Origin: Dissulfuribacter thermophilus
GTDB lineage: Bacteria > Desulfobacterota > Dissulfuribacteria > Dissulfuribacterales > Dissulfuribacteraceae
Length of the DNA stretch: 64,000 nt
Direction: 5' to 3'
NCBI RefSeq assembly: GCF_001687335.1
Contig: NZ_MAGO01000008.1
Coordinates: 62,001 to 126,000, forward strand
Shown: positions 33,209 through 56,944 of the stretch, one piece after another
Layout of the letters: every line of letters begins with the position of its first letter
Position numbering within the stretch: the stretch's first letter is position 1
Program-made: the position numbers and the translations under genes
The notes under the pieces: generated by a model
Told to the model about the DNA's origin: nothing
Databases searched by the model: none
Seen by the model: the letters and a program-made list of their open reading frames with translations, nothing else

Positions 33209-33320
33209 GGATTGCCAATTTTAGCAAATCCGCTGTGTTGCCAGGGGTGGAAGTGCTGTATAGTAAGTGCTCTACATTTCCCCCACAGCCTTGCAAATTT
33301 GGCAAAGTCCATAATCCGGG
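33209..33320 (+). repeat. Copy of the dispersed palindromic element (E3), before bioD
   Basis: Left arm TTGCCAATTTTAGCAA (33212-33227) pairs imperfectly with TTGCAAATTTGGCAA (33291-33305); the loop holds GGAAGTGCTGTATAGTAAGT; the tail is CCATAATCCGGG (33309-33320). This is a single half-element: I see no mirrored tail on the left. It ends about 40 bases ahead of the bioD start. Confidence 0.6.
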
Positions 33321-33361
33321 GATTCAGATTTAAAGAACAGACAAAGGAGAAAGGTATTGGC

Positions 33362-34042
33362 ATGATCATATTTGTCTCTGGAACGGACACTGATTGCGGA
33401 AAGACCTTTGTTGCCTCTCATCTCTGTCTTGCATTTAAAAGGCTTGGAGTAAAAGTAGGCTACCAGAAATGGGTGAGCACTGGGAACAAAGATTTCTCAG
33501 ATGACGCCCGCATGGTTTACAGGCTACTTGGAAGAGAGGACTTTCCATTACCAGGAAGCCTTGAAACCCCCTACTGTTTTTCCATTCCGGCCTCCCCTCA
33601 CCTGGCAGCGGAAAAAGATCAAGCCATTATAGAGTTAGACACACTAAAAAAGGCCACATTAGACCTCAAAAAGCAACTAGAAGTCCTAATCATTGAGGGG
33701 GCTGGTGGTTTATTGGTCCCAATTACCAGAGATGTATTGTTGGCACAGTTTGTAAAGGAAATGGATATCCCTGTCCTACTGGTAGCCAGGGCAGGAGTTG
33801 GTACCATCAACCACACACTGCTGTCACTAAACTACATAAAACAAGAAGGTTTAAAATTCAAAGGGCTCATAATGAATGAACAAGAACCAACTGACCCAAA
33901 AATTTTTATGGACAATTTAAAAATTATTGAACAATTTTCTGGAATTAGCCCTCTTTGTAAAATACATTTTAGTTCATCCATTGACAATTCTCCACTTGAT
34001 GAAGTAATAGTGGCGGCCAGAAAACTATTAAATGAAAGTTGA
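33362..34042 (+). CDS. bioD: Dethiobiotin synthetase
   Basis: 226 residues from ATG 33362 (the open frame extends upstream but AAAGGAGAAAGG favours this start). The P-loop is VSGTDTDCGKTFVA, then KWVSTG, and EGAGGLLVPI, the standard BioD nucleotide and Mg-binding segments. It closes the ureido ring of dethiobiotin using ATP and CO2. First gene of bioD-bioA-bioB; the bioA start follows within 3 bases. Confidence 0.96.
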   Translation: MIIFVSGTDTDCGKTFVASHLCLAFKRLGVKVGYQKWVSTGNKDFSDDARMVYRLLGREDFPLPGSLETPYCFSIPASPHLAAEKDQAIIELDTLKKATLDLKKQLEVLIIEGAGGLLVPITRDVLLAQFVKEMDIPVLLVARAGVGTINHTLLSLNYIKQEGLKFKGLIMNEQEPTDPKIFMDNLKIIEQFSGISPLCKIHFSSSIDNSPLDEVIVAARKLLNES

Positions 34043-34044
34043 CT

Positions 34045-35412
34045 ATGAACACACACTTAGCGAAAAAATTCATAAGCATAGATAGGGATTTCATCTGGCA
34101 TCCCTATACCCAGATGAAGGATTTTGAGCATAAGGACCCCCTCTTCGTTGAAAGGGGTGAAGGTGTATTTCTCTACGACGTCTATGGTAAGGCATACTAC
34201 GATACCATCTCTTCATGGTGGTGCATTGTCCATGGGCATAATCACCCCCATATAAAAGAGGCCATAACAAGACAGATCAATATCCTAGATCAGGTCCATT
34301 TTGCAGGCACCACACATGAACCAGCCATAAGGGTTGCTGAACTCCTAAGAGAGTTCGTTCCTAAAAGACTTTCTCGCATCTTCTTTTCAGATAATGGCTC
34401 CACAGCAGTGGAAGTTGCGCTAAAAATGGCTGTTCAATACTGGCACCACGCAGGATTTAGCGAGAAAAACACCTTTGTTTCCTTGGAATATGGCTATCAT
34501 GGAGATACCATAGGGGCCATGAGTCTGGGAGGCGTCCCGCAATTCAAGGGGCCCTTTGATGCCCTCACCTTTGATTCTATTAGATTACCTGCCCCCTATT
34601 GTTACAGATGTCCCATGGGCCAGGAAAAGGGAGAATGCGATATAGATTGCCTAAATCCCCTTGAAGACATCCTAAAAGAAAAAAGGGACCAAATTGCTGG
34701 AATCATTCTTGAACCTCTATTAATGGGCGCAGGGGGTATGCTTGTTTACCCCGAAACCTATTTGAAGAGACTCGAGGCCCTCATTAAAGACAAAGAGATA
34801 TTCCTTATCTTTGATGAGGTGGCTACAGGGTTTGCGAGGACCGGTGAGATGTTCGCCTTTATGAAGGCTGGCGTAATCCCGGACTTTTTATGCATCTCAA
34901 AAGGCCTTACAGGCGGCATTCTACCCCTAGGAGCCACTTTGACCACTGAAGATGTCTTTAATTCATTTTATGCTGAATATATAGAGGGGAAGACCTTTTA
35001 TCACGGCCACACATTCACAGCCAATCCGCTATCTACTGCTGCTGCCCGTGCCTCCTTGGAACTTTTTAAGCTCAATCCCATAGTTGAATCTGTGAAAGCA
35101 AAAGAGCTTATATTACAAAATTCCGTAAAGGCATTCATGGATTTCCCATTTGTAGGTGATATTAGAGGGATAGGAATGGTTTGGGCCTTTGAGTTAGTAA
35201 AAGATAAAGAGACAAAGACCCCTTTTCCAACTGAGTTCCGGGCTGGCTGGAAGGTGTATCAGGAAGGCCTTAAACATGGACTGATTTTAAGGCCCTTAGG
35301 GGATGTAACATACCTATTCTTGCCACAGTGTATTACAAAAAGGCAAATTGAAGATTGTCTCCAGAGACTATGGACAACATTCGAGGCATGCAAGAAGACT
35401 TTTTCGAGTTAA
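34045..35412 (+). CDS. bioA: Adenosylmethionine-8-amino-7-oxononanoate aminotransferase
   Basis: About 455 residues, class III aminotransferase. FIWHPYTQMKDF and SSWWCIVHGHNHPHI are BioA-specific; IFDEVATGFARTGEMFAF holds the PLP Asp, and the PLP Lys is in ISKGLTGGILPLGATL. It transfers an amino group from S-adenosylmethionine to the BioF product. ATG 34045 is preferred to TTG 34039. The end overlaps bioB by 25-43 bases, depending on the bioB start. Confidence 0.96.
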   Translation: MNTHLAKKFISIDRDFIWHPYTQMKDFEHKDPLFVERGEGVFLYDVYGKAYYDTISSWWCIVHGHNHPHIKEAITRQINILDQVHFAGTTHEPAIRVAELLREFVPKRLSRIFFSDNGSTAVEVALKMAVQYWHHAGFSEKNTFVSLEYGYHGDTIGAMSLGGVPQFKGPFDALTFDSIRLPAPYCYRCPMGQEKGECDIDCLNPLEDILKEKRDQIAGIILEPLLMGAGGMLVYPETYLKRLEALIKDKEIFLIFDEVATGFARTGEMFAFMKAGVIPDFLCISKGLTGGILPLGATLTTEDVFNSFYAEYIEGKTFYHGHTFTANPLSTAAARASLELFKLNPIVESVKAKELILQNSVKAFMDFPFVGDIRGIGMVWAFELVKDKETKTPFPTEFRAGWKVYQEGLKHGLILRPLGDVTYLFLPQCITKRQIEDCLQRLWTTFEACKKTFSS

Positions 35413-36302
35413 TAAAACAGGCCCTCTTAGTAAAGATTTCCCATAGAGGCCTAAAATTTGGCATGTGTTCTATAATGAACGTCAAAAGCGGCAAATGTAG
35501 CGAGGACTGTGCCTTTTGTGCCCAGTCAGCAAGGCATACGACTAATGCTCCAGTATTCGGACTGAAGTCAAAAGAAGAAATCTTGCGCCACGCCCAAAGG
35601 GCAAAAGAATTAGGAGCTACACATTTTAGTCTAGTTGCAAGTGGTCGTGGTCCCACCCAAAGTGAACTCGCTGAGGTTATAGAGGCGATAAAATATCTAA
35701 AAGATAGGGTAGACATCAAAATCTGTGCCTCACTTGGAATCATAGACGAAGATGGACTCAGGGCCTTAAAGGAAGCAGGCCTCAGCAGGTATCATCACAA
35801 CATTGAGACATCCAGGGAATATTTTCCAACGATCTGCTCTACCCATACCTTTGAAGAAAGAATTAACACCATTAAGAGTATCAAAAATGTGGGACTGGAG
35901 TGTTGCTCTGGGTGTATTTTGGGCATTGGAGAGACTAAAAAAGATAGAATATCAATTGCTGAGACACTTAAAGAGATTGGAGTCGACTCTGTCCCCATCA
36001 ATATCCTAGTGCCAATTGAGGGTACAAGACTTGGGGGGAAACCATCCAGCATCACCCCACTTGAGGTTATTGAAACCATTGCCCTGTTTAGGCATACTTT
36101 AAAGACGCCAGCGATTAGATTGGCTGGAGGGAGAGAAGAAGGACTAGGCGACTTCCAGGCCTTGGCATTCATGGCTGGCGCAGACGCATTGATGATTGGA
36201 GGATATCTTACGACTCCAGGTCGTGATCCAGAATTGGATTTAAGATTAAAAAGAGATGCAATAGAATTTTGGAAAAGGTTTAGAGATAATGCTGAAAAAT
36301 AG
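35370..36302 (+). CDS. bioB: Biotin synthase
   Basis: About 310 residues, radical SAM enzyme. The motif is KCSEDCAFCAQSARH (C-x3-C-x2-C). YHHNIETSREYFPTIC and ECCSGCILGIGE carry the conserved residues near the [2Fe-2S] sulfur donor, and AIRLAGGREE its Arg ligand. It inserts sulfur into dethiobiotin. Start candidates are ATG 35370 and ATG 35388, both inside the end of bioA. The end overlaps pstC by 14 bases, so biotin and phosphate genes share a transcript. Confidence 0.96.
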   Translation: MDNIRGMQEDFFELIKQALLVKISHRGLKFGMCSIMNVKSGKCSEDCAFCAQSARHTTNAPVFGLKSKEEILRHAQRAKELGATHFSLVASGRGPTQSELAEVIEAIKYLKDRVDIKICASLGIIDEDGLRALKEAGLSRYHHNIETSREYFPTICSTHTFEERINTIKSIKNVGLECCSGCILGIGETKKDRISIAETLKEIGVDSVPINILVPIEGTRLGGKPSSITPLEVIETIALFRHTLKTPAIRLAGGREEGLGDFQALAFMAGADALMIGGYLTTPGRDPELDLRLKRDAIEFWKRFRDNAEK

Positions 36303-43704: not shown

Positions 43705-45831
43705 TTAAAAGAGACGCTTTAGAATAGCCTGGAGGTCTTTGGATTTAAAGGGTTTACTCAATAACCCATCAATACCCTTATCCTTCAAATCTTTTTCTTC
43801 GTATTCAGCTCCCCACCCAGTAATAAGCACCACCTTGACCTTCGGATCCTTTTTCTTGACCATGGAAGCCACATCGAATCCACTCATCCCAGGCATTCCC
43901 AGGTCCGTTAATACCAGATCAAACTCTTCTTGCTCAATGACTCTTTTTACTTCTCCAGGATCAGTAATTCCCTTGGCAAAATGTCCCATTTTCTCTAAGA
44001 GCATTGTCAATAACTCTACAATGATAAACTCATCGTCTACCACCAATACCCTGAGCCGTGGCACGTTGACTTCTGACTCTGAATCAGAATTTTTGCAATT
44101 GGCTTCACACTTCTTGGATTGAAAAATTGGCAATTCAATTACAAACCTGGCGCCTTTTCCAACTTCAGATTCAAACCAAACCCTGCCTCCTATCTGTTTT
44201 AACAGTCCTTGTATAACAAAGAGCCCAAGGCCAGAGGATTTCACTCCCTTTGTGGTATAAAATGGGTCGAAAATTTTATCTCTTTCTTCCTCTGGTATTC
44301 CTATACCTGTATCTTCCACCTCGATTATTGCTTGGCCAGATTCCCTTCTAGCAGAAATGGTTATTATCCCGCCCTTTGGCATGGCATCGATGGCATTAAA
44401 GATCAAATTGGCCAATATCTCTTTAAGGTCTTCAGGTGAGATGAGAATTTGCCCTACATCTTCTATATTTTTTCTAATTTCAATTGGTATTCCAATTCTC
44501 TCTACACACTCTTTTATTCGGGGACTGACAAACTCAATGACCTGTTCTACAAGCTGTCTTAAATCATCAACCTTGGTCTCAGGTTGTGGGTACTTCTTAC
44601 CAACGTAGGCATTTAGTCTTTTTACAATGTGTGAGCCATCTGAAACGGCAGTCTTGATCCGTTCCAACCTTTTCAAGTGATCGGAATTGTCTATCTCCTC
44701 CATGAGGATTTCAACATTTCCCATGATCATTGCCAAAATGTTGTTAAAATCGTGAGCAACGCCTTGAGCCATTAAACCAAGGGCCTTCATCTTCTCTATT
44801 TGAACCATCTCTTCAAGGCGCTTTTTTTGCCCTCTCAGATCATGGAAGATGATCATTCCGACAATGCAGTGATCCTCAAGATGAAAAGGATGATAGAAGA
44901 TATCTACAGGTATAAGCTCTCCGTCAAAGGCCCTTAGAATACCAGCGTTAATTTCTGTCATCCTGCCATCTTTAATGGCTGCTCTTATGGCCTGAACATC
45001 ACATTGCCTGTGCAAAAGACGCTCGAATGGCTGATCAATTAGGCCCTTTGCAGTGCTATTGGTCAGTATGATCAGGGCTTCGTTAACAGAATAAATTCTT
45101 CCAGCAGGATTGAGCAGTGCCAAACCTTGGGGCACACCTCGGATAATTCCATCTAGTATTTTGAGTGCGTCCTGTAATTCTTTTTTACTGTTGGAAATTT
45201 CTTTCGTCTTTGTCTCGATGAGCTTTTGAACGTGAAGGTGTGATAATATGGGCTTTCCCTTCAAGTCAATCGATTCGAGGAAATTGGCAATTACCTGCGT
45301 GATTATGACAAGGTCCTGCCGTTCACGAACATTAAAGCTTCTGGGCACAGAATTACTAAGATTCAAGACCCCTAGTTCACCAATTGGAAGACATGCCAAG
45401 GAACGAATATTGACAGCATTAATCCCATCCAATAAGGGCACGTGTGTGTCATTAGTATCTTCAATAAAAATGGGTTCCTTTGAATCAAAGACCTTCCAGG
45501 CAATACCTTCATCGCGCTTAAATTTGAGATCTCTGTTATATTCTATTGAAGATCCAACATCGAAATGATCCAAAAGCCCCTTTGCAGCCAAAAGCTTCAG
45601 GGAATCATCTGAAGAGTCATAACGTAGGATAGATGTGTTTTCAAAACCGAGTTCAAGGGAAAGGCAATCAACGATCTTTTGGGCACCCTGTACCAGATCT
45701 CTAGTGTCTTTAGCAATATGGATGAGATTTAAGATTATGCCAAGACTTCTGCTATGAATGTCATATGAATCCTTAAAATAGGTTAAGACCCGAGAAATGG
45801 CCTCTTTTTTTTTGGAGTCGGGAGAGTTCAT
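43705..45831 (-). CDS. GAF/PAS hybrid sensor histidine kinase with receiver domain
   Basis: About 708 residues. Order: GAF about 45-190, coiled coil, PAS about 225-335, HisKA with phospho-His in MAQGVAHDFNNILAM (about 359), HATPase with the N, G1 and G2 boxes (NLIFNAIDAMPKGG, VEDTGIGIP, SSGLGLFVI), and a C-terminal receiver with phospho-Asp in DLVLTDLGMPGMSG (about 642) and KPF Lys. No membrane segments, so it senses cytoplasmic signals. ATG 45831 has AGGTGG 6 bases upstream; an in-frame GTG at 45840 is less likely. It follows the HDOD gene directly. Its output partner is not visible. Confidence 0.92.
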   Translation of the reverse strand: MNSPDSKKKEAISRVLTYFKDSYDIHSRSLGIILNLIHIAKDTRDLVQGAQKIVDCLSLELGFENTSILRYDSSDDSLKLLAAKGLLDHFDVGSSIEYNRDLKFKRDEGIAWKVFDSKEPIFIEDTNDTHVPLLDGINAVNIRSLACLPIGELGVLNLSNSVPRSFNVRERQDLVIITQVIANFLESIDLKGKPILSHLHVQKLIETKTKEISNSKKELQDALKILDGIIRGVPQGLALLNPAGRIYSVNEALIILTNSTAKGLIDQPFERLLHRQCDVQAIRAAIKDGRMTEINAGILRAFDGELIPVDIFYHPFHLEDHCIVGMIIFHDLRGQKKRLEEMVQIEKMKALGLMAQGVAHDFNNILAMIMGNVEILMEEIDNSDHLKRLERIKTAVSDGSHIVKRLNAYVGKKYPQPETKVDDLRQLVEQVIEFVSPRIKECVERIGIPIEIRKNIEDVGQILISPEDLKEILANLIFNAIDAMPKGGIITISARRESGQAIIEVEDTGIGIPEEERDKIFDPFYTTKGVKSSGLGLFVIQGLLKQIGGRVWFESEVGKGARFVIELPIFQSKKCEANCKNSDSESEVNVPRLRVLVVDDEFIIVELLTMLLEKMGHFAKGITDPGEVKRVIEQEEFDLVLTDLGMPGMSGFDVASMVKKKDPKVKVVLITGWGAEYEEKDLKDKGIDGLLSKPFKSKDLQAILKRLF

Positions 45832-45832
45832 T

Positions 45833-46702
45833 TTAACCACCTGAAATCATCTTTAGCACATCCTCTGCCTTACCCAACAACATATCGACATTATCGATTG
45901 TATTGTTTAGAATTTTTTTTGTCCAAGGATATTGATTCCTGATAGCCTCCAATTCCTCCTCAAGACTGTCAGAATCCTCTCGGCCAAGGGCAGTTTTGGA
46001 TACTAAGTTTGCAATCCCTGTAAATACGCCTTTAAATGACAGGGGGCCTGATCCAGAGGGGACGAAATGGTGTTCAGCAACTGCTTTCTCTAGATCTTTG
46101 GGTAACTGCCATTTTCTTACAAGCCACTTACCCACTTCTGTATGTAGAAGACCCACTCTACTTTCTGCCTCAATTGCTGAAAGCCCTTCACGTTTGATTA
46201 GACTTTGAATTTGTTCGTACTCATCCATATAGTATGAGGCCATTATGAGCCTGCCGATATCATGTAGGAGCCCAAAACTCATGGCATCGTGAAAAGGCTC
46301 TGAAGCATCGCCAATTCCCCTTGCCATGTAATCTTCTATAATCCCAGTAAAAAAAGAATGTAGCCAAAACTGTTCCAAGTTGAACGAGGGGGAGAATGAG
46401 ATCTTGGAAAACTGCTGTTGCAAGGCCACACCTAGGGCAATATTCCACACCTCTTTAGGTCCAAGTAAAAGTATTGCCTTTGACACTGTGGAGATACGGC
46501 CAGAAAAACCAAAATAGGCACTGTTGGCAATTCTTAGGACCTGAGCAGTGATACCAGGGTCTACAGAGATGGTCTTTTCTAATTCATCAATATCTCCCTC
46601 ATACTCTGGAAATATTTCAATCAATTTTGCAATGACCTGAGGTGGGGAAGGCAGACTTTCGACATTAAGTATCCTTAGACTTAACTCTAACTTTTTATCC
46701 AT
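45833..46702 (-). CDS. HDOD-domain protein
   Basis: A 289-residue protein with the HDOD fold (degenerate HD): LPSPPQVIAKLIEIFPEYEG, VDPGITAQVLRIANSAYFG, and SFGLLHDIGRLIMASYYMDE with an H-D pair, then EVGKWLVRKWQLPKDLEKAV with HH later. HDOD proteins sit in chemotaxis and two-component pathways without a known catalytic activity. It lies between the Crp-like regulator (16 bases upstream) and the hybrid kinase, suggesting a three-gene signalling unit. Confidence 0.9.
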   Translation of the reverse strand: MDKKLELSLRILNVESLPSPPQVIAKLIEIFPEYEGDIDELEKTISVDPGITAQVLRIANSAYFGFSGRISTVSKAILLLGPKEVWNIALGVALQQQFSKISFSPSFNLEQFWLHSFFTGIIEDYMARGIGDASEPFHDAMSFGLLHDIGRLIMASYYMDEYEQIQSLIKREGLSAIEAESRVGLLHTEVGKWLVRKWQLPKDLEKAVAEHHFVPSGSGPLSFKGVFTGIANLVSKTALGREDSDSLEEELEAIRNQYPWTKKILNNTIDNVDMLLGKAEDVLKMISGG

Positions 46703-46717
46703 GCTAGATACCCGTCT

Positions 46718-47416
46718 TTACGTCAATTTATCGAGCCCTTCAGCGAGGTCGGAAAGAAGCTCAAAATTTTTTATTTGGATGACGTCATTGTGTCTCTCTA
46801 AGAGCCCATTTTCCTCCATCTTTTTAAAGGCCCTGGACAATGTTTCAGGAGAGGTACCAAGTATAGTGGATAGAAGATTTTTTGAGACGTTCAACCTGAT
46901 TTCCTTGGCCTCTTTACCGTCTCCCAGGCCAGATAGAGCTAAAAGGTAGGCTGCCAGTCTTTGGTGCACTTCTTTAAGGGCCAGATCTTCGATCATCCTT
47001 GTAAAAGACCTCAATCGCATGGAAAGGACACCTAGCATGGAGAGCGCAATGGAGGGGTGTTCTTTTATCATTGCGATAAATGAATCTTTTGGGAAAAATA
47101 AGGTCTCGCACTTTTCCATGGCCGCTGCAAAGGCCGGATATTCTATACCCACGAAAACAGCTACTTCTCCAAAAGGCTCCCCAGGACCTAATATATGAAG
47201 GGTCTGTTCACGACCTTGATTTGACACCTTAAATATGCGAACAAAACCATTAAGGACCACATAAAATCCAGTTGCAGCATCACCTTCAGAAAATATCATC
47301 TCGCCCTTTTTAAAGACCTTTTTTGCGGCAATTTTTAGAAAGAGCTGGAGATTTTCTTCACTAAGACCAGAAAATAGCACTGTCTTTTTTAAAAAAGCCT
47401 TTAAAACACTATCCAT
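46718..47416 (-). CDS. Crp/Fnr-family transcription regulator
   Basis: A 232-residue protein with a cyclic-nucleotide-binding-type domain (KGEMIFSEGDAATGFYVVLNG, GPGEPFGEVAVFVG) and a helix-turn-helix (NLLSTILGTSPETLSRAFKK) near the C-terminus. The Fnr N-terminal Cys cluster is absent, so it is not an Fnr-type oxygen sensor. The effector is unknown. First gene of a leftward trio with the HDOD and kinase genes, divergent from the liv genes. Confidence 0.92.
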   Translation of the reverse strand: MDSVLKAFLKKTVLFSGLSEENLQLFLKIAAKKVFKKGEMIFSEGDAATGFYVVLNGFVRIFKVSNQGREQTLHILGPGEPFGEVAVFVGIEYPAFAAAMEKCETLFFPKDSFIAMIKEHPSIALSMLGVLSMRLRSFTRMIEDLALKEVHQRLAAYLLALSGLGDGKEAKEIRLNVSKNLLSTILGTSPETLSRAFKKMEENGLLERHNDVIQIKNFELLSDLAEGLDKLT

Positions 47417-47957: not shown

Positions 47958-49112
47958 ATGATGAAAGTTTCTAAGCTTTTCCGTGGTCTTCTGTTATTTT
48001 TTCTTTTGGGGCTATTTGTCCTTCCATCTGGGGCTTTTGCCAATAGACCCATAAAAATCGGTTCTTTTCTAGCACTCACTGGCCCAGCTTCTTTTCTTGG
48101 TGATCCAGAGCTAAAGACCCTCAAGATGTACATTGAGGAAGTAAACGCCAAGGGCGGTATCGACGGCCATAAGGTTGAACTAATCTACTATGATACCGGA
48201 GGAAAGGCAAAGGAGGCCAAGGATGTAGTAAAGCGCCTAATCAAAAAGGATAGAGTAGACGTCATAATTGGCGGAAGTACCTCCGGCACCACTCTGGCAG
48301 TTATAGACATTATAGAAAGGGCAAGGATTCCATTTATTTCTCTTGCAGGCTCAATCAAGATTATTCAGCCAGTCAAAAAATGGGTATTCAAAACCCCGCA
48401 TACAGACAGAATGGCTGCTGCAAAGATTTTTGAAGACATGAAAAAACGTGGGATAACCAAAGTCGCACTCATTACCGGAGACGGTGGTTTTGATAAATCT
48501 GGCCGCGCACAGTGCCTCGATCTCGCACCCAAGTATGGAATCCAAATCGTAGCTGACGAAAAATACTCCAACTCCGACACAGATATGACTACACAGCTTA
48601 CAAAAATACGTTCCACAGATGCACAGGCCATCTTGAACTTCGGTTTTGGAAAGGCCCCGGCCATCGTCACCAAGAACGTGAGACAACTTGGTATTAAACT
48701 CCCTCTTTATCAGTCTCACGGCGTAGCCTCAAGGAAGTTCATCGAACTTGCCGGCAAGGCAGCTGATGGTGTGAGGTTCCCTGCTGCTGCCCTCCTTGTG
48801 GCTGAAAAGCTCCCAGATAACGATCCACAAAAGAAGGTCCTTATGGATTACAAGACCAAATACGAGGCCAAATACGGCCCAGTCTCAACATTTGGTGGCC
48901 ACGCCTATGACGGACTCTTTATTGTCTTAGAGGCCATAGACAGGGCCAATTCCCTTGACAAGGCAAAGATAAGAGACGAAATCGAAAGGACCAAAAATTT
49001 CATTGGAACCGGTGGTATCTTCAACATGAGTCCAACAGACCATCTGGGTCTCGATCTCAGTGCATTCAAAATGCTCGAGGTGAAAAACGGAGACTGGATA
49101 CTTGTAGACTAA
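47958..49112 (+). CDS. livJ: Branched-chain amino acid-type ABC substrate-binding protein
   Basis: A 384-residue periplasmic binding protein of the Leu/Ile/Val (peripla_BP_6) family. The signal peptide is MMKVSKLFRGLLLFFLLGLF and ends near PSGAFA. The mature part opens IKIGSFLALTGPASFLGDPE and has VDVIIGGSTSGTTLAV. The gene name reflects family and context only; other amides and aromatic compounds are also bound by this family. A strong hairpin separates it from the permease genes, consistent with extra expression of the binding protein. Confidence 0.9.
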   Translation: MMKVSKLFRGLLLFFLLGLFVLPSGAFANRPIKIGSFLALTGPASFLGDPELKTLKMYIEEVNAKGGIDGHKVELIYYDTGGKAKEAKDVVKRLIKKDRVDVIIGGSTSGTTLAVIDIIERARIPFISLAGSIKIIQPVKKWVFKTPHTDRMAAAKIFEDMKKRGITKVALITGDGGFDKSGRAQCLDLAPKYGIQIVADEKYSNSDTDMTTQLTKIRSTDAQAILNFGFGKAPAIVTKNVRQLGIKLPLYQSHGVASRKFIELAGKAADGVRFPAAALLVAEKLPDNDPQKKVLMDYKTKYEAKYGPVSTFGGHAYDGLFIVLEAIDRANSLDKAKIRDEIERTKNFIGTGGIFNMSPTDHLGLDLSAFKMLEVKNGDWILVD

Positions 49113-49122
49113 AAAGAAATAG

Positions 49123-49156
49123 AAGGACTGAGGACGCTATTTTGTCCTCAGTCCTT
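49123..49156 (+). terminator. Strong hairpin after the substrate-binding gene
   Basis: AAGGACTGAGGAC and GTCCTCAGTCCTT form a perfect 13-bp stem with an 8-base loop, 10 bases after the stop codon. Only AACCCC follows, so it probably halts or protects mRNA rather than being a full terminator. Confidence 0.6.
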
Positions 49157-49242
49157 AACCCCTAATCCTGCAAATCCATTACAATGGAAAATAAATTTGC
49201 TAAACAGCGACGATAAACTTGCCAATTGCAGGATTTAGGTTA
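49155..49242 (+). repeat. Copy of the dispersed palindromic element (E7), before livH
   Basis: Outer inverted ends TTAACCCCTAATCCTGCAA (from 49155) and TTGCAGGATTTAGGTTA (to 49242) match at about 16 of 19 positions. Inside is a small CCAT-taca-ATGG hairpin. The shortest copy found (88 bp). Confidence 0.55.
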
Positions 49243-49329
49243 CTTTCCTACCCTCGATATTGAAAATCACTGATTACTCTCTAACTCGGTAAAAACGACG
49301 AATGGAGAGTTTTGTGAATAGGTAACGAG

Positions 49330-50205
49330 ATGTTTGACCAATTTATTCAGTTCCTCATTACAGGCATAACCGTCGGCTCGATATATGCACTAGTGGGCCT
49401 CGGATTCGCTCTAATTTACAATGCATCGGACGTAGTAAACTTCGCACAGGGCGAATTCGTAATGATAGGGGCCATGAGCGCCATTTTTCTACACATGAGC
49501 GGTGTCCCATATTTTCTTGCTATCATAATCGCAGTTTTGATTAGCATGTTGGTTGGAATGGCCCTTGAGAAACTTGCAATAGAACAGGCAAGAAATGCCA
49601 CTGTGGTAACAACCATTATCATCACTATTGGGGCATCCATTTTTTTACGAGGAGCTGCACTCCTGATCTGGGGGAAAGATATCTATGGATTTCCACCCAT
49701 TTCAGGTGATGACCCCATAAAGATCGGAAATGTCACAGTACTGCCTCAGAGCCTTTGGATTATCGCCGGAACCTGTGTGTTCGTTATAGGACTTCGCTAC
49801 TTCTTTCAAAATACCCTGATCGGAAAGGCCATTTTAGCCTGCTCATATAACAAAAAGGCCGCTTACTTGATGGGAATAGAAGTGAAAAAGATGCTACTCA
49901 TAGCATATGGAATCTCTGCCCTACTTGGCGGCATAGCCGGAGTTCTCATAGCACCCATTACCTATATGACCTACGGCGCCGGAGTCATGCTAGGGCTCAA
50001 AGGATTTTGCGCCTCTATCTTAGGGGGTATGGGAAACTCCATGGGAGCGGTAATTGGAGGCCTGATTCTCGGGATAGTAGAGTCCCTGGGAGCAGGTTTT
50101 ATCTCCTCAGGGTATAAGGATGCAATAAGTTTCTTTATCATACTACTAGTCCTCTTTTTCAAGCCCACTGGACTATTTGGAAAATCTGGGATGGAGCGAG
50201 TCTGA
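49330..50205 (+). CDS. livH: Branched-chain amino acid-type ABC permease LivH
   Basis: A 291-residue permease with about eight hydrophobic segments: GITVGSIYALVGLGFALIYNA and DVVNFAQGEFVMIGA are LivH hallmarks, and GFCASILGGMGNSMGAVIGG is the coupling region. It forms the channel with LivM. Its stop overlaps the livM start by one base. Confidence 0.94.
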   Translation: MFDQFIQFLITGITVGSIYALVGLGFALIYNASDVVNFAQGEFVMIGAMSAIFLHMSGVPYFLAIIIAVLISMLVGMALEKLAIEQARNATVVTTIIITIGASIFLRGAALLIWGKDIYGFPPISGDDPIKIGNVTVLPQSLWIIAGTCVFVIGLRYFFQNTLIGKAILACSYNKKAAYLMGIEVKKMLLIAYGISALLGGIAGVLIAPITYMTYGAGVMLGLKGFCASILGGMGNSMGAVIGGLILGIVESLGAGFISSGYKDAISFFIILLVLFFKPTGLFGKSGMERV

Positions 50206-51167
50206 TGCGACTATTGGGGCTTTATGTTTTCCTTGTCATTTCTATAGGTCTCGGGCTATTGTTCCCAGAAAATTATTACGTGAGCGTTGTTGGCACAACC
50301 GCCTTCTTCAACATTATACTTGCAGTGTCTCTTAATCTCTTTATGGGTTACGCTGGACAGATATCGCTGGGGCACGCTGCCTTTTTTGGAATTGGCGCAT
50401 ACACCTCCGCCGTACTCACTACCAGCTATGGCCTACATCCTTTAATAGCCCTTTGCATAGGTGCCATCATAACAGGGATTCTGTCATTTCTTCTCTCAAA
50501 ACCCATACTTAAACTAAAGGGCCATTATCTTGCCATGGCTACCCTTGGACTAGGGATAATTATTCATATAATTTTGGTCCAGGAAGAGTGGTTAACTGGC
50601 GGACCAGACGGCCTATCAGGCATACCAGTACTACAAATACTTGGCTATGACTTTGACTCAGACATAGAATGGTATTTCTTGTTGGCCATAATAGCCTCAG
50701 CCACCATATGGATATCCCTAAACCTTGGAGAGTCAAGGATGGGAAGGGCGTTGAGGGCCATACATGGAAGCGAAATCGCCTCGCAAACCCTGGGGATTGA
50801 TACCTCTTCTGCCAAGGCCCAGGTTTTTATCCTCTCAGCAGTGATCACATCTATTGCAGGAAGCCTGTTTGTCCATCAACAGGCCTTTATTAGTCCAGAT
50901 TCCTGCAGTTTTGCCTTCTCTGTCGAACTGGTAACCATGGTGGTATTGGGAGGACTTGGTTCCACCTTTGGCGCAGTATTTGGCGCACTGATACTCACGA
51001 TATTGCCTGAAATATTGGTCCATTTTGAGGAATTGGAAGTGCTAATCTACGGTGCCATTTTGATGGTGATAATGATATTCCTTCCAAAAGGAGTCTTTGT
51101 ATCATTTTCGGAATTGCTGGAACACTTAATAAAGGGAAGATCTCATGCAAGAAGGACAACTGCTTGA
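50205..51167 (+). CDS. livM: Branched-chain amino acid-type ABC permease LivM
   Basis: A 320-residue permease: GYAGQISLGHAAFFGIGAYT, LKLKGHYLAMATLGLG, LTGGPDGLSGIP and VVLGGLGSTFGAVFGA are typical LivM blocks. It pairs with LivH and overlaps livG by 23 bases. Confidence 0.94.
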   Translation: MRLLGLYVFLVISIGLGLLFPENYYVSVVGTTAFFNIILAVSLNLFMGYAGQISLGHAAFFGIGAYTSAVLTTSYGLHPLIALCIGAIITGILSFLLSKPILKLKGHYLAMATLGLGIIIHIILVQEEWLTGGPDGLSGIPVLQILGYDFDSDIEWYFLLAIIASATIWISLNLGESRMGRALRAIHGSEIASQTLGIDTSSAKAQVFILSAVITSIAGSLFVHQQAFISPDSCSFAFSVELVTMVVLGGLGSTFGAVFGALILTILPEILVHFEELEVLIYGAILMVIMIFLPKGVFVSFSELLEHLIKGRSHARRTTA

Positions 51168-51918
51168 GGTACGCAGCATCTCCAAGGCCTTTGGCGGAGT
51201 CCAAGCCTTAAGGGATATCTCTTTTACAGTAAATAGAGGAGAAATTTTTTCTGTCATTGGCCCAAATGGGGCGGGGAAAACCACTCTTTTCAATCTGCTC
51301 ACTGGTGTATTTACAGCAGATACCGGCGCCATCCTCTTTGAAGGAATAGACATAACCACCAAAAAACCCTTTGAGATTGCAAGACTCTGCATCCAGCGTA
51401 CATTTCAAAACCTGCAGATCTTTATGAACATGACCGTATTGGAAAATGTAATGGTGGGGTGTCACACCAGGACTACATCTGGCATGTTGAGTGCCTGTCT
51501 GAGGCTCCCCAAAATCTTAAGGGAAGAAAAGGCCATACGCAAATGGGCCTACGAGGCCCTGGAATTCGTAGGATTGAAAGATGTAGCTGAACAACCGGCC
51601 AATATTTTGCCATATGGATATTTGAAAAGGCTTGAAATAGCAAGGTCCCTTGCTGCAAATCCAAAGCTCATCCTATTGGATGAACCTGCTGCCGGTTTAA
51701 ACGACACGGAAACCCTGGAAATGCGTTCTCTTATTGAAGAAATATCAAAACAGGGTATCACTGTATTATTGGTTGAACATAATATGTCTCTTGTTATGGA
51801 GTGTTCCCATAGAATTCTGGTTTTAGTATATGGAGAGTGTCTTACTGTGGGCACTCCAACGGAGATTCAGAAAGATCCGCGGGTAATAGCTGCATACTTA
51901 GGGGATGAGACGCAATAG
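51145..51918 (+). CDS. livG: Branched-chain amino acid-type ABC ATPase LivG
   Basis: A 257-residue ATPase: Walker A GPNGAGKTTLFNLLTG, LCIQRTFQNLQIFMNMTVLE, signature LPYGYLKRLEIARSL, Walker B LILLDEPAAGLND and switch VEHNMSLVM, all LivG-type. Liv systems usually have a second ATPase, LivF, immediately after livG; here the next gene, 9 bases on, is an unrelated protein. LivG may act as a homodimer or LivF may be encoded elsewhere. Confidence 0.93.
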   Translation: MQEGQLLEVRSISKAFGGVQALRDISFTVNRGEIFSVIGPNGAGKTTLFNLLTGVFTADTGAILFEGIDITTKKPFEIARLCIQRTFQNLQIFMNMTVLENVMVGCHTRTTSGMLSACLRLPKILREEKAIRKWAYEALEFVGLKDVAEQPANILPYGYLKRLEIARSLAANPKLILLDEPAAGLNDTETLEMRSLIEEISKQGITVLLVEHNMSLVMECSHRILVLVYGECLTVGTPTEIQKDPRVIAAYLGDETQ

Positions 51919-51927
51919 ACTGCACTC

Positions 51928-53544
51928 ATGAATCTTTCAATTAGGCTCGTTCCAGGACTCTTTAGGATACTGCCCTATCCTGATGCAAGCGAATTTTGGT
52001 CCTTTGTAAAATCTTGGATTGTTCAGCCTAAGACACAGTTAGATGCCAATTCCTTTACTACCAAGTTTTCATCTGCCCAAGAACTCCTAGTATCTTTGGA
52101 GGGCTTGAGCACCGCCCTTAGGAAGACACAATTTGTACCAACAGCGGTCCCAGTGATTCCACTTCAAATGGTGGCCCATGAGGGTGCCGAACCAGAAAAG
52201 AGTTGCTGGCAGATTGCACCGCCAGGTTATCTACTGGTCAAGGCCAATGATAGTTTCCCTAAAAAAGAGCCTTGGTTATACAACTATTGCGTTGTAAATG
52301 CGGCTCATCAGTTCCCCATCAACAACCTTTATTTTCCATATCGTCTAATATACCTGGTAGGCCCATATAAAAATGAATGTTTTTTCTGTGGAAGTAGATA
52401 TCATAAGACCCAAAATTGTAGCGCCTTTTTCAATGGTCTAGGAAATGGCCAAATAATACTTGAAAAATTCTGTAAATACTCACCCACTATTTGGAAAAAT
52501 ATAATAAAAGGAGAAAATAAAAACCTCTCCTTCCTAGAAGGTCTTTACTCGATTCTTGAAGACTTGAGATACCCTTTTAGGCCGGCATTCGCCATTAAAG
52601 TCTTTGGCTCCCAAAGACCAGATACCCTTTCCAATAATCAATTGGCCATTGAAGAGCTATCAGGCCATATAAAAAAACTTTTTGATGCTATAGCCTCAGG
52701 AGACCTGGAGACATTACATTTGCTATTGGATGAAAAGGCGCCGGATCAGCCTGAAATCTTAGTAGACATTTTAAAGGGACTTACAAGACTATATGAAGGA
52801 GAGGTCGAGGAGGCATTCGAGGCATTTCAGAGGGCAGAAGCCATCTCAAAAGTCCCTAATCAAAGGGCCTATAGCGCCCTACTTCAAAGTAGGCTTCAAT
52901 TGATACTTGGGGCCCTGGATAGGGCCAGATCCTCCATAAACAGGGCCAAGGCCACTTTACCCAAAGACAAATTGATTCAATACTGGGACGCCATAATTTT
53001 CAGCATAGAAAGAAATCATAGAGGGGCAAAAAATGCCATATTCTCTCTTGCTCAAGATAACCACTGGCTTGTAAATCTTATTTGTGAACCACTAATCATT
53101 GGAAATGCATCCCAAGTAGAAGACAAATTTCGGCAGAAACTAAATGACCTTGAGACCCAAGTTGACCAGGATGTGATTTCATTGGAAACATTGATTTCGC
53201 AGACAAAGAGGGCATTTCCAAAGGCAAATTTCAATCATATCTTGGTAAAATTTAGAGACATTAACGGACGCATACCAGAAATGGGCATTGTGGGCCTTCA
53301 ACAGGCCCATAATGAACTAATGGCACTGTGGAACCAGCTGTATGATGAAGTAAACAAGAATTATAAAATCCTCTACAACAGACTGGTCAAGGCACGAAAA
53401 CGAATGATATTCTGCCTCAAAAAGATACCATCGACTCCCAAACTCAATCCTTTGAGAAATAAGTGCCTGAACGAGCTAGAAGACCTGACTAAAAAGATAA
53501 AAGAGCTGCGCAATATAAAAAAATGCAAGAGATGGAAGACCTAG
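51928..53544 (+). CDS. Unrecognised protein with CCHC zinc knuckle and helical repeats
   Basis: A 538-residue protein I do not recognise. Residues 151-164 read CFFCGSRYHKTQNC, exactly C-x2-C-x4-H-x4-C, the zinc-knuckle spacing that binds RNA or protein in other systems. Residues about 245-375 look like TPR-type helical pairs (ILKGLTRLYEGEVEEAFEAF, LQLILGALDRARSSINRAK, with the usual small and aromatic positions). Residues about 400-530 are Lys/Glu-rich, predicted coiled coil. No signal peptide or membrane segment. It starts 9 bases after livG and is followed, with overlap, by a small membrane protein, so all may be one transcript. Function unknown. Confidence 0.75.
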   Translation: MNLSIRLVPGLFRILPYPDASEFWSFVKSWIVQPKTQLDANSFTTKFSSAQELLVSLEGLSTALRKTQFVPTAVPVIPLQMVAHEGAEPEKSCWQIAPPGYLLVKANDSFPKKEPWLYNYCVVNAAHQFPINNLYFPYRLIYLVGPYKNECFFCGSRYHKTQNCSAFFNGLGNGQIILEKFCKYSPTIWKNIIKGENKNLSFLEGLYSILEDLRYPFRPAFAIKVFGSQRPDTLSNNQLAIEELSGHIKKLFDAIASGDLETLHLLLDEKAPDQPEILVDILKGLTRLYEGEVEEAFEAFQRAEAISKVPNQRAYSALLQSRLQLILGALDRARSSINRAKATLPKDKLIQYWDAIIFSIERNHRGAKNAIFSLAQDNHWLVNLICEPLIIGNASQVEDKFRQKLNDLETQVDQDVISLETLISQTKRAFPKANFNHILVKFRDINGRIPEMGIVGLQQAHNELMALWNQLYDEVNKNYKILYNRLVKARKRMIFCLKKIPSTPKLNPLRNKCLNELEDLTKKIKELRNIKKCKRWKT

Positions 53545-53726
53545 AGTCGCTGGTCTCTAACTGGGAAAATAAAATCGATAACCTGATCAGCGAGGTAGAC
53601 AATCTCCTGTTAAAGGAATTCCAATCGGCATTAATTAAAAAATATTGTGGTATTGGGATTGCCATCACAGTATCTACATGGATTTTATTCTATATATTTC
53701 ATATCGTTAGGGACTTTTTACAATAG
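53523..53726 (+). CDS. Small membrane protein, partner candidate of the zinc-knuckle protein
   Basis: A 67-residue protein: a charged N-terminal helix (MQEMEDLESLVSNWENKIDN) likely to form a coiled coil, then one membrane segment (IGIAITVSTWILFYIFHIV, about residues 44-62). It overlaps the end of the zinc-knuckle gene by 22 bases, implying coupled translation, and overlaps the convergent bioC end by 20 bases. It could anchor its coiled-coil neighbour to the membrane. Small, and without recognisable homology. Confidence 0.5.
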   Translation: MQEMEDLESLVSNWENKIDNLISEVDNLLLKEFQSALIKKYCGIGIAITVSTWILFYIFHIVRDFLQ

Positions 53727-54519
53727 AGTTCGAGATTTGTGTCCCTATAAAGACTACCACTTCGAATGACACCACTATTCCTGCAAATCGCCTCAAAAAA
53801 CAGTCTTCGAGTCTTTTCAAATCTTCTTTTAAAAAGAATGAATCCTTTTTTCGGCAAGAAGGATTTACCCCTGAGCGTTTGAGATTTCTAAGCAGTTCTA
53901 AAATATTCTTATAGGCCCTGATAAACGTAATCTTCTCACAGACCAAAGGCCTAAACACGCCTGTCAAAAGGGCTTCCACTTCCTGAAAGCTCCTAAATTT
54001 GGATGCGACTGTGCTCTCCCCCCTTGTAAGCTCAAGACATTGATTTAATTGCCTTAAAGATCCATTGGTAAAAATGGTACATGCAAACACCCCATCTTGT
54101 GTCAACAACCCCTTAATGCCTTGAAGAGTGGACTCGATATCTTCAAGCCAATGGAGAACACTATTGGAAAATATGAGATCAAATCGCTCTTTTCCAAGTA
54201 CGCTTGGAACATGCTCGATATCCATCCTAAGAAATCTGACCTGCTGTACCTTTTTTTCTATTTGAGCCCTTGCCTGTAAGAGCATTTCATGAGAAAGGTC
54301 AACACAGGTAACCTCAGCCATATCAAAGGCGTCTACTAAAAGACTTGTCAATTGCCCGCTACCGCATCCAAGATCGAGAAGCCGCTTTTTCCCTTCTCGT
54401 CTTTCCATAACGGGGAAAAGGTCTGAAATAAGTCTTAGCCCAACCTCTGTCTGTACATATGAGGAGGAAGAATACGTCTTAGAGGCCCTGGAAAATGACC
54501 TTTCAATCGCCTTTTTCAA
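53707..54519 (-). CDS. bioC: Malonyl-ACP O-methyltransferase BioC
   Basis: A 270-residue SAM methyltransferase: LLDLGCGSGQLTSLLVDAF (SAM-binding), and FDLIFSNSVLHWLEDIESTL, the FSN.VLHW string typical of BioC. The N-terminus KKAIERSFSRASKTYSSSSYVQ matches the BioC opening (F-x-x-A-x-x-Y). It methylates malonyl-ACP to start pimelate synthesis. The start codon is TTG 54519 with AAAGGAG upstream, adjacent to the end of a repeat element. Last gene of the leftward biotin cluster. Confidence 0.92.
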   Translation of the reverse strand: MKKAIERSFSRASKTYSSSSYVQTEVGLRLISDLFPVMERREGKKRLLDLGCGSGQLTSLLVDAFDMAEVTCVDLSHEMLLQARAQIEKKVQQVRFLRMDIEHVPSVLGKERFDLIFSNSVLHWLEDIESTLQGIKGLLTQDGVFACTIFTNGSLRQLNQCLELTRGESTVASKFRSFQEVEALLTGVFRPLVCEKITFIRAYKNILELLRNLKRSGVNPSCRKKDSFFLKEDLKRLEDCFLRRFAGIVVSFEVVVFIGTQISNSIVKSP

Positions 54520-54533
54520 ACTGCTCCAACTCC

Positions 54534-54826
54534 TTTAAACCCAAATTATGCACTGCGAAAGAGGGCAAAAATGAATTTTGTTTTTATATCAAGCAGTTGT
54601 TCTATTGATAGCACTTGCTTTACATTCACCTTTTTGGTGAAACAATTTTCAGTTTTTTTGCCCTCTTTCGTAGCCCTATACACTGTCTGTACAGGGCAGG
54701 CCCTGCGGGATTGGCGATTTTGCCCAATCTGCTTTGTTGCTCAGGGCTCGAAGTACCTAAGTACGTCTTCACCCTTCGCGCCTCGCATCTTGGGCAAACT
54801 CGCCAATTGCATAATTTGGGTTAAAA
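54534..54826. repeat. Full two-half dispersed palindromic element (E5+E2)
   Basis: 293 bp bounded by a 19-bp terminal inverted repeat with one mismatch: TTTAAACCCAAATTATGCA (54534-54552) and TGCATAATTTGGGTTAAAA (54808-54826). The left half has a 19-bp stem, CTGCGAAAGAGGGCAAAAA (54553-54571) with TTTTTGCCCTCTTTCGTAG (54655-54673), and an inner TTCACC/GGTGAA hairpin. The right half has an 18-bp stem, ATTGGCGATTTTGCCCAA (54710-54727) with TTGGGCAAACTCGCCAAT (54790-54807), and an inner AAGTACctaaGTAC hairpin. It overlaps the end of the BioH-like gene and touches the bioC ribosome site. No protein is encoded on its own. Confidence 0.8.
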
Positions 54827-55607
54827 CATCTTTACACAAAAAAGGTAAATGCCCACATCCTTCAACAAACATGTATTTCACCCTAGATGTGACCTTGGGT
54901 ATATCCTCAATGGGTGCAATTCTATCTAGTGTTCCGTGGACCAGTGTAGTCCTTAGGCCCTCAGGGACCGAGATCTCTTCAACGGGATTATTCTCTAGGA
55001 AATCAAGGCCCTCCAAAAGCTCTTTCTTTGTAAAAGATTCTATATAATTCCTCTCAAGCCCATCTTTGAATCTCCTATATAGGGATTCTTGCCCCTTAAA
55101 GCAATCCCTATAAAAAAGCCTCAGCCCAAGCCTTTTATCCCTCTCTACCGCTGCCTTCATATTCCCAATTTCCTTTGAGGGGAAACCCCTTCTAAGGGAG
55201 ATCAACCACAGGCTTTCCAATGAGCACGGTGTCAAAGATGGTGCATGGCCATGAGACCTTAAACCCTGTTGGGCCAGGTGAGCGATCTTCAGTGCCAAAA
55301 TGGCCCCAAGAGACCAACCCATAAGATGAATCTTTTTGCCAGACCTTCTGAGTCCTAAGAGCGTTTCAACATATGCTTCAATGGAAATCTCCCAAGCGCA
55401 CCCCTTTGGATATAGTATTGGTAAGCCCTTTGAACCCAATCCTTGTTGCTCTCCATCATGTAAAACCTCACAATTGTCACCAGATGAAAGAAAAATGGGG
55501 CGAAGGAGATGTGGAGTGCCACAATCACTTGGGGCAAGTTCAAAAATAGAGCCCTTGAATCCCCACCCTGGTATAAAAAAAATGACTGATTTAAAGCACC
55601 TGTTCAC
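54741..55607 (-). CDS. Alpha/beta hydrolase, BioH-like pimeloyl-ACP esterase
   Basis: A 288-residue alpha/beta hydrolase: oxyanion region FFIPGWGFKGS, nucleophile elbow HLMGWSLGAILALKIAHL (Ser about 102), Asp in LVHGTLDRIAPI and His in VEGCGHLPFLCKD. Its place between bioF and bioC argues for the BioH role, releasing pimeloyl-ACP methyl ester; sequence alone cannot exclude another esterase. About 27 C-terminal residues after the catalytic His (from LTQIMQLASLPKM to YFEP) are encoded by the right half of a repeat element, so the original C-terminus was replaced. Confidence 0.8.
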   Translation of the reverse strand: MNRCFKSVIFFIPGWGFKGSIFELAPSDCGTPHLLRPIFLSSGDNCEVLHDGEQQGLGSKGLPILYPKGCAWEISIEAYVETLLGLRRSGKKIHLMGWSLGAILALKIAHLAQQGLRSHGHAPSLTPCSLESLWLISLRRGFPSKEIGNMKAAVERDKRLGLRLFYRDCFKGQESLYRRFKDGLERNYIESFTKKELLEGLDFLENNPVEEISVPEGLRTTLVHGTLDRIAPIEDIPKVTSRVKYMFVEGCGHLPFLCKDVLTQIMQLASLPKMRGAKGEDVLRYFEP

Positions 55608-55629
55608 GGGGCTAAATTTCCTAAAAATT

Positions 55630-55810
55630 TTTCTTCCTTTAACTCAAAACTCAACACTCAAAACTCAACACTTCCAAAGCTCTTTTCCTTCAACTCAAAA
55701 CTCAAAACTCAACACTCAAAACTTTTAAAACTGCTCAACACTCAAAACTCAACACTTTTAAAAAAGGTTTCTTCCTTTAACTCAAAACTCAACACTCAAA
55801 ACTCAACACT
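55630..55810 (+). repeat. AACTCAAAACTCAACACTC short-period repeat array
   Basis: About 180 bases made of 10-11-base units (AACTCAAA, AACTCAACACTC) broken by CCTTCAACTC and TTTTAAAACTGC strings. It fills the gap between bioF and the BioH-like gene and runs into the last codons of bioF. The same units occur at 41119-41177 and, on the other strand, at 32966-33014. Confidence 0.75.
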
Positions 55811-56944
55811 TCTCAAGGCGTCCTTCAGTCTGGAAAGTGTCTCCTTTGAATGAACAGACGACAGCGAGATCCGTAACCTCGAAGTACCTTTTGGCACTGT
55901 TGGCGGCCTAATTGCCCTCAGATAGATTCCATGATCTCTGAGAGCATTCTGTGCCCTTAATGTAGTTTCATTTTCTCCAACTATTACAGGTACGATCTGG
56001 GCCTGGCCAGGTGTCGTAAACCCAAGGTCATTTTTCACGAATTCTCTAAGATCCTCTGAAAGCTCACTGAGCCTTTTCCGCCTGTCATCCAGGCCTTTCA
56101 TAAACCTTAAGGCCTCGAGATTCCATGCAACTACTGGGATAGGAAGAGCTGTAGAAAAAATAAAGCTCCTTGCCTTGTTGACTAATAATTCCCTAATCAC
56201 CTTGGATGTAAGGCAAAATGCCCCGTATCCTCCTAGGGCCTTTCCAAAGGTCCCGACAATTATGTCCACAGCCTCTCTAGTCCTATCCTCTATGGCTCCC
56301 CTTCCCTCTTTTCCCAATACCCCTATTGCATGGGCCTCGTCCACGACGAGGATAAAATCATACCTTTTTTTGAGCTCGATTATATCCTCTATTGGGGCCA
56401 GATCCCCATCCATGCTATAGAGGCTTTCTATTACAACCACGTTCCTCTTACCTGTTTGGGACTTTTCCCTTAGTAATCTTTCCAGGTGGTCAGGATCATT
56501 ATGCCTGAACCTAAAAAAATGAGAGCCACTCAAAAGCACTCCATCTATGATGCTGGCATGGCACAGTCTATCCATGAAAAAAATGGTTTTCTTCTTCTGT
56601 GAGAGGGCCGTCATGACCCCTAGATTGGCGAGATAGCCGGTTCCAAATACGAGGGAGGCCTCTTTACCAATAGATTCACTTAGTTCATATTCAAGCTGTT
56701 CAAAAAGGGAATTTGCCCCTCCAAGGAGCCTACTGCCACCGCTACCCATTCCAACAGTCTCAAAGACAGAGCCTATCTTCTGCTTTAGAAATGGGTCCTG
56801 GCTTAGTCCCAGATAGTCATTTGATGAAAAATCGAGAAAGCGACGCCCATTTATTAGAATTTCCGGTCCCTTACGATACTCAAAGGGTTCTACCTTCCTT
56901 AGCCCCTGGTACGCCGCTATTTTATTTAATTCATCTTCAAACAC
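55796..56944 (-). CDS. bioF: 8-amino-7-oxononanoate synthase
   Basis: A 382-residue alpha-oxoamine synthase: FSSNDYLGLSQDP, GSGGSRLLGGANSLFEQLE, VVDEAHAIGVLGKEGRG and the PLP Lys in VGTFGKALGGYGAFCLT. It condenses pimeloyl-ACP with alanine. It overlaps orf90 by 8 bases at its start. Its last codons lie at the edge of a short-period repeat array. Confidence 0.96.
   Translation of the reverse strand: MFEDELNKIAAYQGLRKVEPFEYRKGPEILINGRRFLDFSSNDYLGLSQDPFLKQKIGSVFETVGMGSGGSRLLGGANSLFEQLEYELSESIGKEASLVFGTGYLANLGVMTALSQKKKTIFFMDRLCHASIIDGVLLSGSHFFRFRHNDPDHLERLLREKSQTGKRNVVVIESLYSMDGDLAPIEDIIELKKRYDFILVVDEAHAIGVLGKEGRGAIEDRTREAVDIIVGTFGKALGGYGAFCLTSKVIRELLVNKARSFIFSTALPIPVVAWNLEALRFMKGLDDRRKRLSELSEDLREFVKNDLGFTTPGQAQIVPVIVGENETTLRAQNALRDHGIYLRAIRPPTVPKGTSRLRISLSSVHSKETLSRLKDALRSVEF

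Follow-up and report, generated by a model that had tools for sequence, protein, structure and literature searches.

We identified a likely single gene, broken by a one-base deletion, in a 64,000-nucleotide stretch of Dissulfuribacter thermophilus DNA (hereafter the window), at a place where two overlapping open reading frames (ORFs) can be read. In the reading that we favor, with moderate confidence, the intact product is a cytoplasmic signaling scaffold of cyclase descent that is anchored by its tail in the inner membrane. The gene extends over positions 51928–53726 of the forward strand and, read across the break, would encode about 600 amino acids that are arranged, from the N to the C terminus, as a degenerate class III cyclase-like domain, a CCHC zinc knuckle, TPRs, a coiled coil, and a C-terminal tail anchor. 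Five elements of this reading are directly supported: the single ORF, the knuckle, the TPRs, the C-terminal hydrophobic helix, and the kinship with cyclase-bearing proteins. Such a protein would derive from a cyclase signaling protein and act like a tail-anchored signaling scaffold.

The first of the two frames, ORF1 (51928–53544, forward strand), encodes 538 amino acids, and the second, ORF2 (53523–53726, same strand), encodes 67; the two overlap by 22 nucleotides. A first-pass annotation had correctly placed both frames here and noted that they overlap, and had taken them for two separate proteins. Comparison with relatives does not bear out that division. Nine further genomes of this order contain homologues, that in G038 being truncated by a contig end. 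In all eight full-length orthologues (G001, G002, G004, G005, G008, G012, G040, and G042) the gene is a single ORF of 597–623 amino acids. ORF1 aligns with residues 1–537 of the G001 orthologue at 43% identity and ORF2 with residues 533–598 at 42% identity (E 1e-19). Because relatives carry both parts in one ORF, and because the two frames align contiguously, ORF1 and ORF2 are, as judged from these alignments, one gene and not two. ORF2 then corresponds to the 3' end, comprising the end of the coiled coil and the tail anchor, and approximately the last seven codons of ORF1 (CKRWKT and the stop) are out of frame relative to the relatives. A spurious two-component system can thus be struck from the record.

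The break falls at a run of seven A residues (53517–53523, forward strand), where one base that is present in the two nearest orthologues is missing. Roche 454 was the sole platform used for the published genome of strain S69T, which consists of 27 contigs and 2,524,218 bp (PMC5276818); the assembly analyzed here has 27 contigs and 2,524,199 bp. In a study of the GS 20, an early 454 instrument, homopolymer-associated errors accounted for more than 97% of errors, and A/T runs made up more than 95% of the error-associated homopolymer runs (PMC1564139). Because the genome is 454-only and 454 errors are mostly associated with homopolymers, in particular A/T runs, the likeliest explanation of the break is a 454 undercall at the A7 run.

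Somewhat unlikely is a genuine and recent frameshift mutation in this strain, which would have left either a young pseudogene or a two-piece gene whose product is a soluble scaffold lacking its anchor. This is what the assembly sequence says as given, and the other A/T runs of at least seven bases within genes of the window all lie in open frames. In addition, frame junctions are not enriched at long A/T runs in a 464-kb scan of this genome (8 of 242, or 3.3%, versus 3.0–3.7% at other runs), and a high homopolymer error rate is therefore not seen. These junctions were counted with an open-frame scan, a first codon-bias frameshift scan having been too strict to be useful; when the candidate junction sites were read by eye, the flanking frames resembled ordinary gene ends or non-coding frames. 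Against a true mutation, however, stand the exclusive use of 454 reads and the lack of any sign of decay before or after the break.

The A7 run is also a potential A_AAA_AAA slippery heptamer, and a real split might regulate anchoring if programmed -1 frameshifting or RNA polymerase slippage yielded a soluble product of 538 amino acids alongside a full-length one anchored in the membrane. The register of the heptamer is correct, the ORF1 stop lies six codons downstream, the ORF2 frame opens eight codons earlier, and conservation is equal in both halves of the gene. However, the register follows automatically from conserved Lys-Lys codons plus the lost base and is not independent evidence. The split is found in 0 of 8 full-length relatives, and RNA 3' of the heptamer folds no better than shuffled sequences (z -0.69). 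We regard regulated slippage as quite unlikely.

Returning to the single-gene reading, a model of the full orthologue (pLDDT 88, pTM 0.79) consists of TPR helices, long coiled-coil helices, and a C-terminal hydrophobic helix that follows a KK pair. Transferred through alignment to this orthologue, the TPR helices correspond to positions 52663–53046 (approximately residues 246–373) and the long helices or coiled coil to positions 53089–53511 (approximately residues 388–528), both on the forward strand. The putative transmembrane segment, IGIAITVSTWILFYIFHIV (53652–53708, forward strand), has KK just before it and a hydropathy of 2.03, and a counterpart is present in all of the orthologues read. 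Foldseek comparison of the orthologue model with designed TPRs yields a probability of 1.0 and TMt values of 0.7–0.8 (0.72–0.79). A stretch of the window protein resembles TIGR02917 with an E-value of 3.4e-4, which is below that model's cut-off, and a PDB sequence search with the window protein gave weak helical-repeat matches only. We take a TPR fold to be present in the window protein on the strength of the modeled orthologue. TPRs, a coiled coil, and one C-terminal membrane segment had all been proposed in the first-pass annotation, and all three are supported. Its membrane-tethered TPR scaffold likewise holds up, but as a single polypeptide that carries its own anchor at the C terminus rather than as a pair of proteins. 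Together, the modeled helices and the KK pair point to a predicted topology in which the body of the protein is cytoplasmic and the tail serves as the anchor. The intact product, of about 600 amino acids, would be a cytoplasmic protein with a single transmembrane helix at its C terminus to fix it in the inner membrane, and its TPRs and coiled coil may hold partner proteins there.

Relatives of the protein occur throughout the phylum, in contrast to the initial impression that it had no recognizable homologue. A profile of the order-level members, applied to 395 Desulfobacterota genomes, gave matches at E ≤ 1e-8 in 37 of them. A scan of genome contigs with the single sequence found nothing, whereas an alignment-based scan found eight. 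Pfam, NCBIfam, and PADLOC contain no family for the window protein, a literature search found nothing on a knuckle-TPR family, and a search of plasmids found no relative. Members carry the knuckle followed by TPRs, a coiled coil, and a C-terminal transmembrane segment in one ORF, as does the window protein when the one-base break is allowed for. Weak profile matches at L041–L049 lack the knuckle and were rejected as members; L041, the one scanned, is a pure TPR protein.

Three architectures can be distinguished within the family: short proteins like that of the window, proteins of approximately 630–670 amino acids, and proteins of approximately 840–920 amino acids. The longest forms carry an N-terminal class III nucleotidyl cyclase domain (PF00211, E 1.7e-10 to 3.9e-23 in the three scanned). 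Behind it lies another cyclase-like domain, a degenerate one; comparison of its profile with that of class III cyclase gives a probability of 95% (E 5e-8), and a PDB search with it gave no match. Two hydrophobic segments are present at the C terminus in most of the distant members checked, against one in short forms. The family is thus phylum-wide and without a Pfam or NCBIfam model, and it combines class III cyclase domains, intact or degenerate, with a CCHC knuckle, TPRs, and a membrane tail.

The N-terminal domain of the window protein (residues 1–125; 51928–52302, forward strand) was assigned from an AF2 model, Foldseek, and its place in the family alignment. AF2 modeling of residues 1–172 gave a pLDDT of about 90 over most of residues 1–120, with the strand and helix order of a class III cyclase. 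The domain was modeled alone because Foldseek results for the whole model are dominated by the TPRs. Adenylyl or guanylyl cyclases account for its two best PDB matches and for many of the others, although these matches are weak (E 0.02 at best, TM of about 0.4). Both the strand and helix order and the top PDB matches suggest a link between the domain and class III nucleotidyl cyclases (PF00211) such as Ma1120, Rv1900c, and Rv1264, as does the presence in longer family members of a PF00211 domain together with a degenerate copy. Unlike those enzymes, neither the window protein nor its orthologue matches PF00211, and the alignment of the N-terminal domain contains no conserved metal-binding Asp. 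The domain is probably a class III cyclase fold, the lack of a conserved Asp suggesting that it is non-catalytic, and it may serve in docking or dimerization.

In the family alignment, the N-terminal domain of short forms falls at the position of the second domain of long forms. A comparison of these two domains with hhalign is weak (probability 16%, E 0.0017), and one with the true cyclase domain is not significant. The window domain is probably related to the second, degenerate cyclase-like domain of the long members. If short forms are pseudo-cyclases, they provide a test case for what becomes of cyclase folds after the loss of catalysis. The cyclase domain of long relatives also weakly matches Pycsar cyclases (PycC; E 1.8e-10 at best), to which the window protein has no match. 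A CHASE2-cyclase-TPR protein in the same genome combines a cyclase fold, TPRs, and membrane association in one polypeptide, as the window protein probably does. However, it has CHASE2 and a cyclase that is recognized as a true PF00211 domain, whereas the window protein has the knuckle and the C-terminal tail anchor. That protein holds the sole PF00211 match in the genome (G000:C6:21225-21746; L134 2971-4992).

The CCHC zinc-knuckle motif, CFFCGSRYHKTQNC, is located at 52378–52419 on the forward strand (residues 151–164). The exact C-x2-C-x4-H-x4-C spacing noted at the outset is indeed present there and is invariant in the family, both in the order-level members and in the 26 distant ORFs read (26 of 26, L050–L075), mostly as CFYCG-x3-H-x4-C-P. 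Because of this invariance, the motif is not a chance occurrence. Of the 409 stop-to-stop ORFs with 150 or more amino acids in 464 kb of this genome, no other contains the exact motif. The knuckle could be a structural or a binding zinc site.

A more specific proposal is that the protein binds RNA or single-stranded DNA as retroviral, AIR2, or Lin28 knuckles do, and tethers nucleic acid to the membrane. The family has in common with the CCHC zinc knuckles (PF00098; AIR2 and Lin28 knuckles) the exact spacing as well as two further positions: the first Cys is followed by an aromatic residue in most members, and the second by Gly in nearly all. In addition, the knuckles of some relatives weakly match the zf-CCHC, AIR2, and Lin28 models. 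However, every score is below the curated cut-off, the best relative reaching 15.0 of the 20.8 bits required for zf-CCHC (PF00098), and the knuckle of the window protein itself has no match. No further RNA-binding domain was found in the protein. Nucleic-acid binding seems rather improbable.

A liv-type operon lies upstream on the same strand (47958–51918) and is considered here as context rather than as a defining part of the gene. It consists of genes for a substrate-binding protein (47958–49112), livH (49330–50205), livM (50205–51167), and livG (51145–51918), the last of which ends nine nucleotides before ORF1. The gene was originally described as standing in place of livF. With regard to gene order this is accurate, as it occupies the slot directly after livG, but LivF is not missing: another contig carries a gene for a LivF-like ATPase (G000:C12:46042-46752). 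No ABC ATPase domain (PF00005) was matched in the window protein.

A dedicated accessory role in the liv transporter, whether as a gate or as a substitute for LivF, is very improbable for this protein. The gene follows livG on the same strand in the window genome (G000), G001, G002, and G004, even though the proteins are only 22–43% identical to the G001 copy, with spacings of 9 nucleotides in G000, 12 in G002, and 55 in G001 and a 4-nucleotide overlap in G004. However, these are the only genomes read in which it does so, and each has a LivF-like gene elsewhere. Moreover, G008 has a complete run of substrate-binding protein, livH, livM, livG, livF, and paaK with the knuckle/TPR gene located elsewhere, and no liv genes adjoin the gene in G005, G012, or the distant members read. 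The copies in G040, G042, and G038 are on short contigs. Adjacency to liv genes is thus local to one lineage of four genomes, which breaks a general link to the transporter and argues against the suggested gating role or replacement of a transporter part. The place of the gene behind livHMG is best read as lineage-local co-transcription, and the protein not as a transporter subunit.

The LivF-like gene adjoins a PaaK-like gene in G000, G001, and G004, and in G002 that side is off the contig. This pair of livF and a PaaK-like AMP-binding ligase gene is found apart from livHMG in several genomes and within the complete liv operon in G008 (L028 4748-6750; L129 1982-3985; L131 4435-6598; L133 5201-7251; L132 5639-11574). 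The window (43705–47416) and G002 (L077 284-4014) share a group of genes that lies divergent to the liv operon and encodes a histidine kinase, an HDOD-like protein, and a Crp/Fnr-type regulator (cNMP_binding and HTH_Crp_2).

Taken as a whole, a composite account of this Desulfobacterota family receives hardly any credence from us: loss of the catalytic half of a class III cyclase protein, conversion of the remainder into a pseudo-cyclase scaffold anchored by its tail, binding of nucleic acid or protein by the CCHC knuckle, and, in this strain, switching of the anchoring by -1 slippage on the A7 run.

No neighborhood of the gene is universal among the genomes read. In seven genomes of three families (L105–L111) it follows ileS-lspA, with groES-groEL next in four of them, and in two others it precedes genes for a prepilin peptidase, a sensor kinase, and a response regulator (pilD-HK-RR). 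The conserved order of ileS, lspA, and this gene, often followed by groES-groEL, is a place to look for function.

Elsewhere in the window, a 786-amino-acid ORF (28957–31317) fuses a PLP-dependent cysteine-synthase-like domain (PF00291) to a cysteinyl-tRNA synthetase (PF01406, DALR_2, and CysS_C). In addition, there are two biotin-synthesis-like groups, at 33212–36302 and 53707–56944 (bioD, bioA, and bioB; bioC, bioH/G, and bioF), named by eye from their translations.
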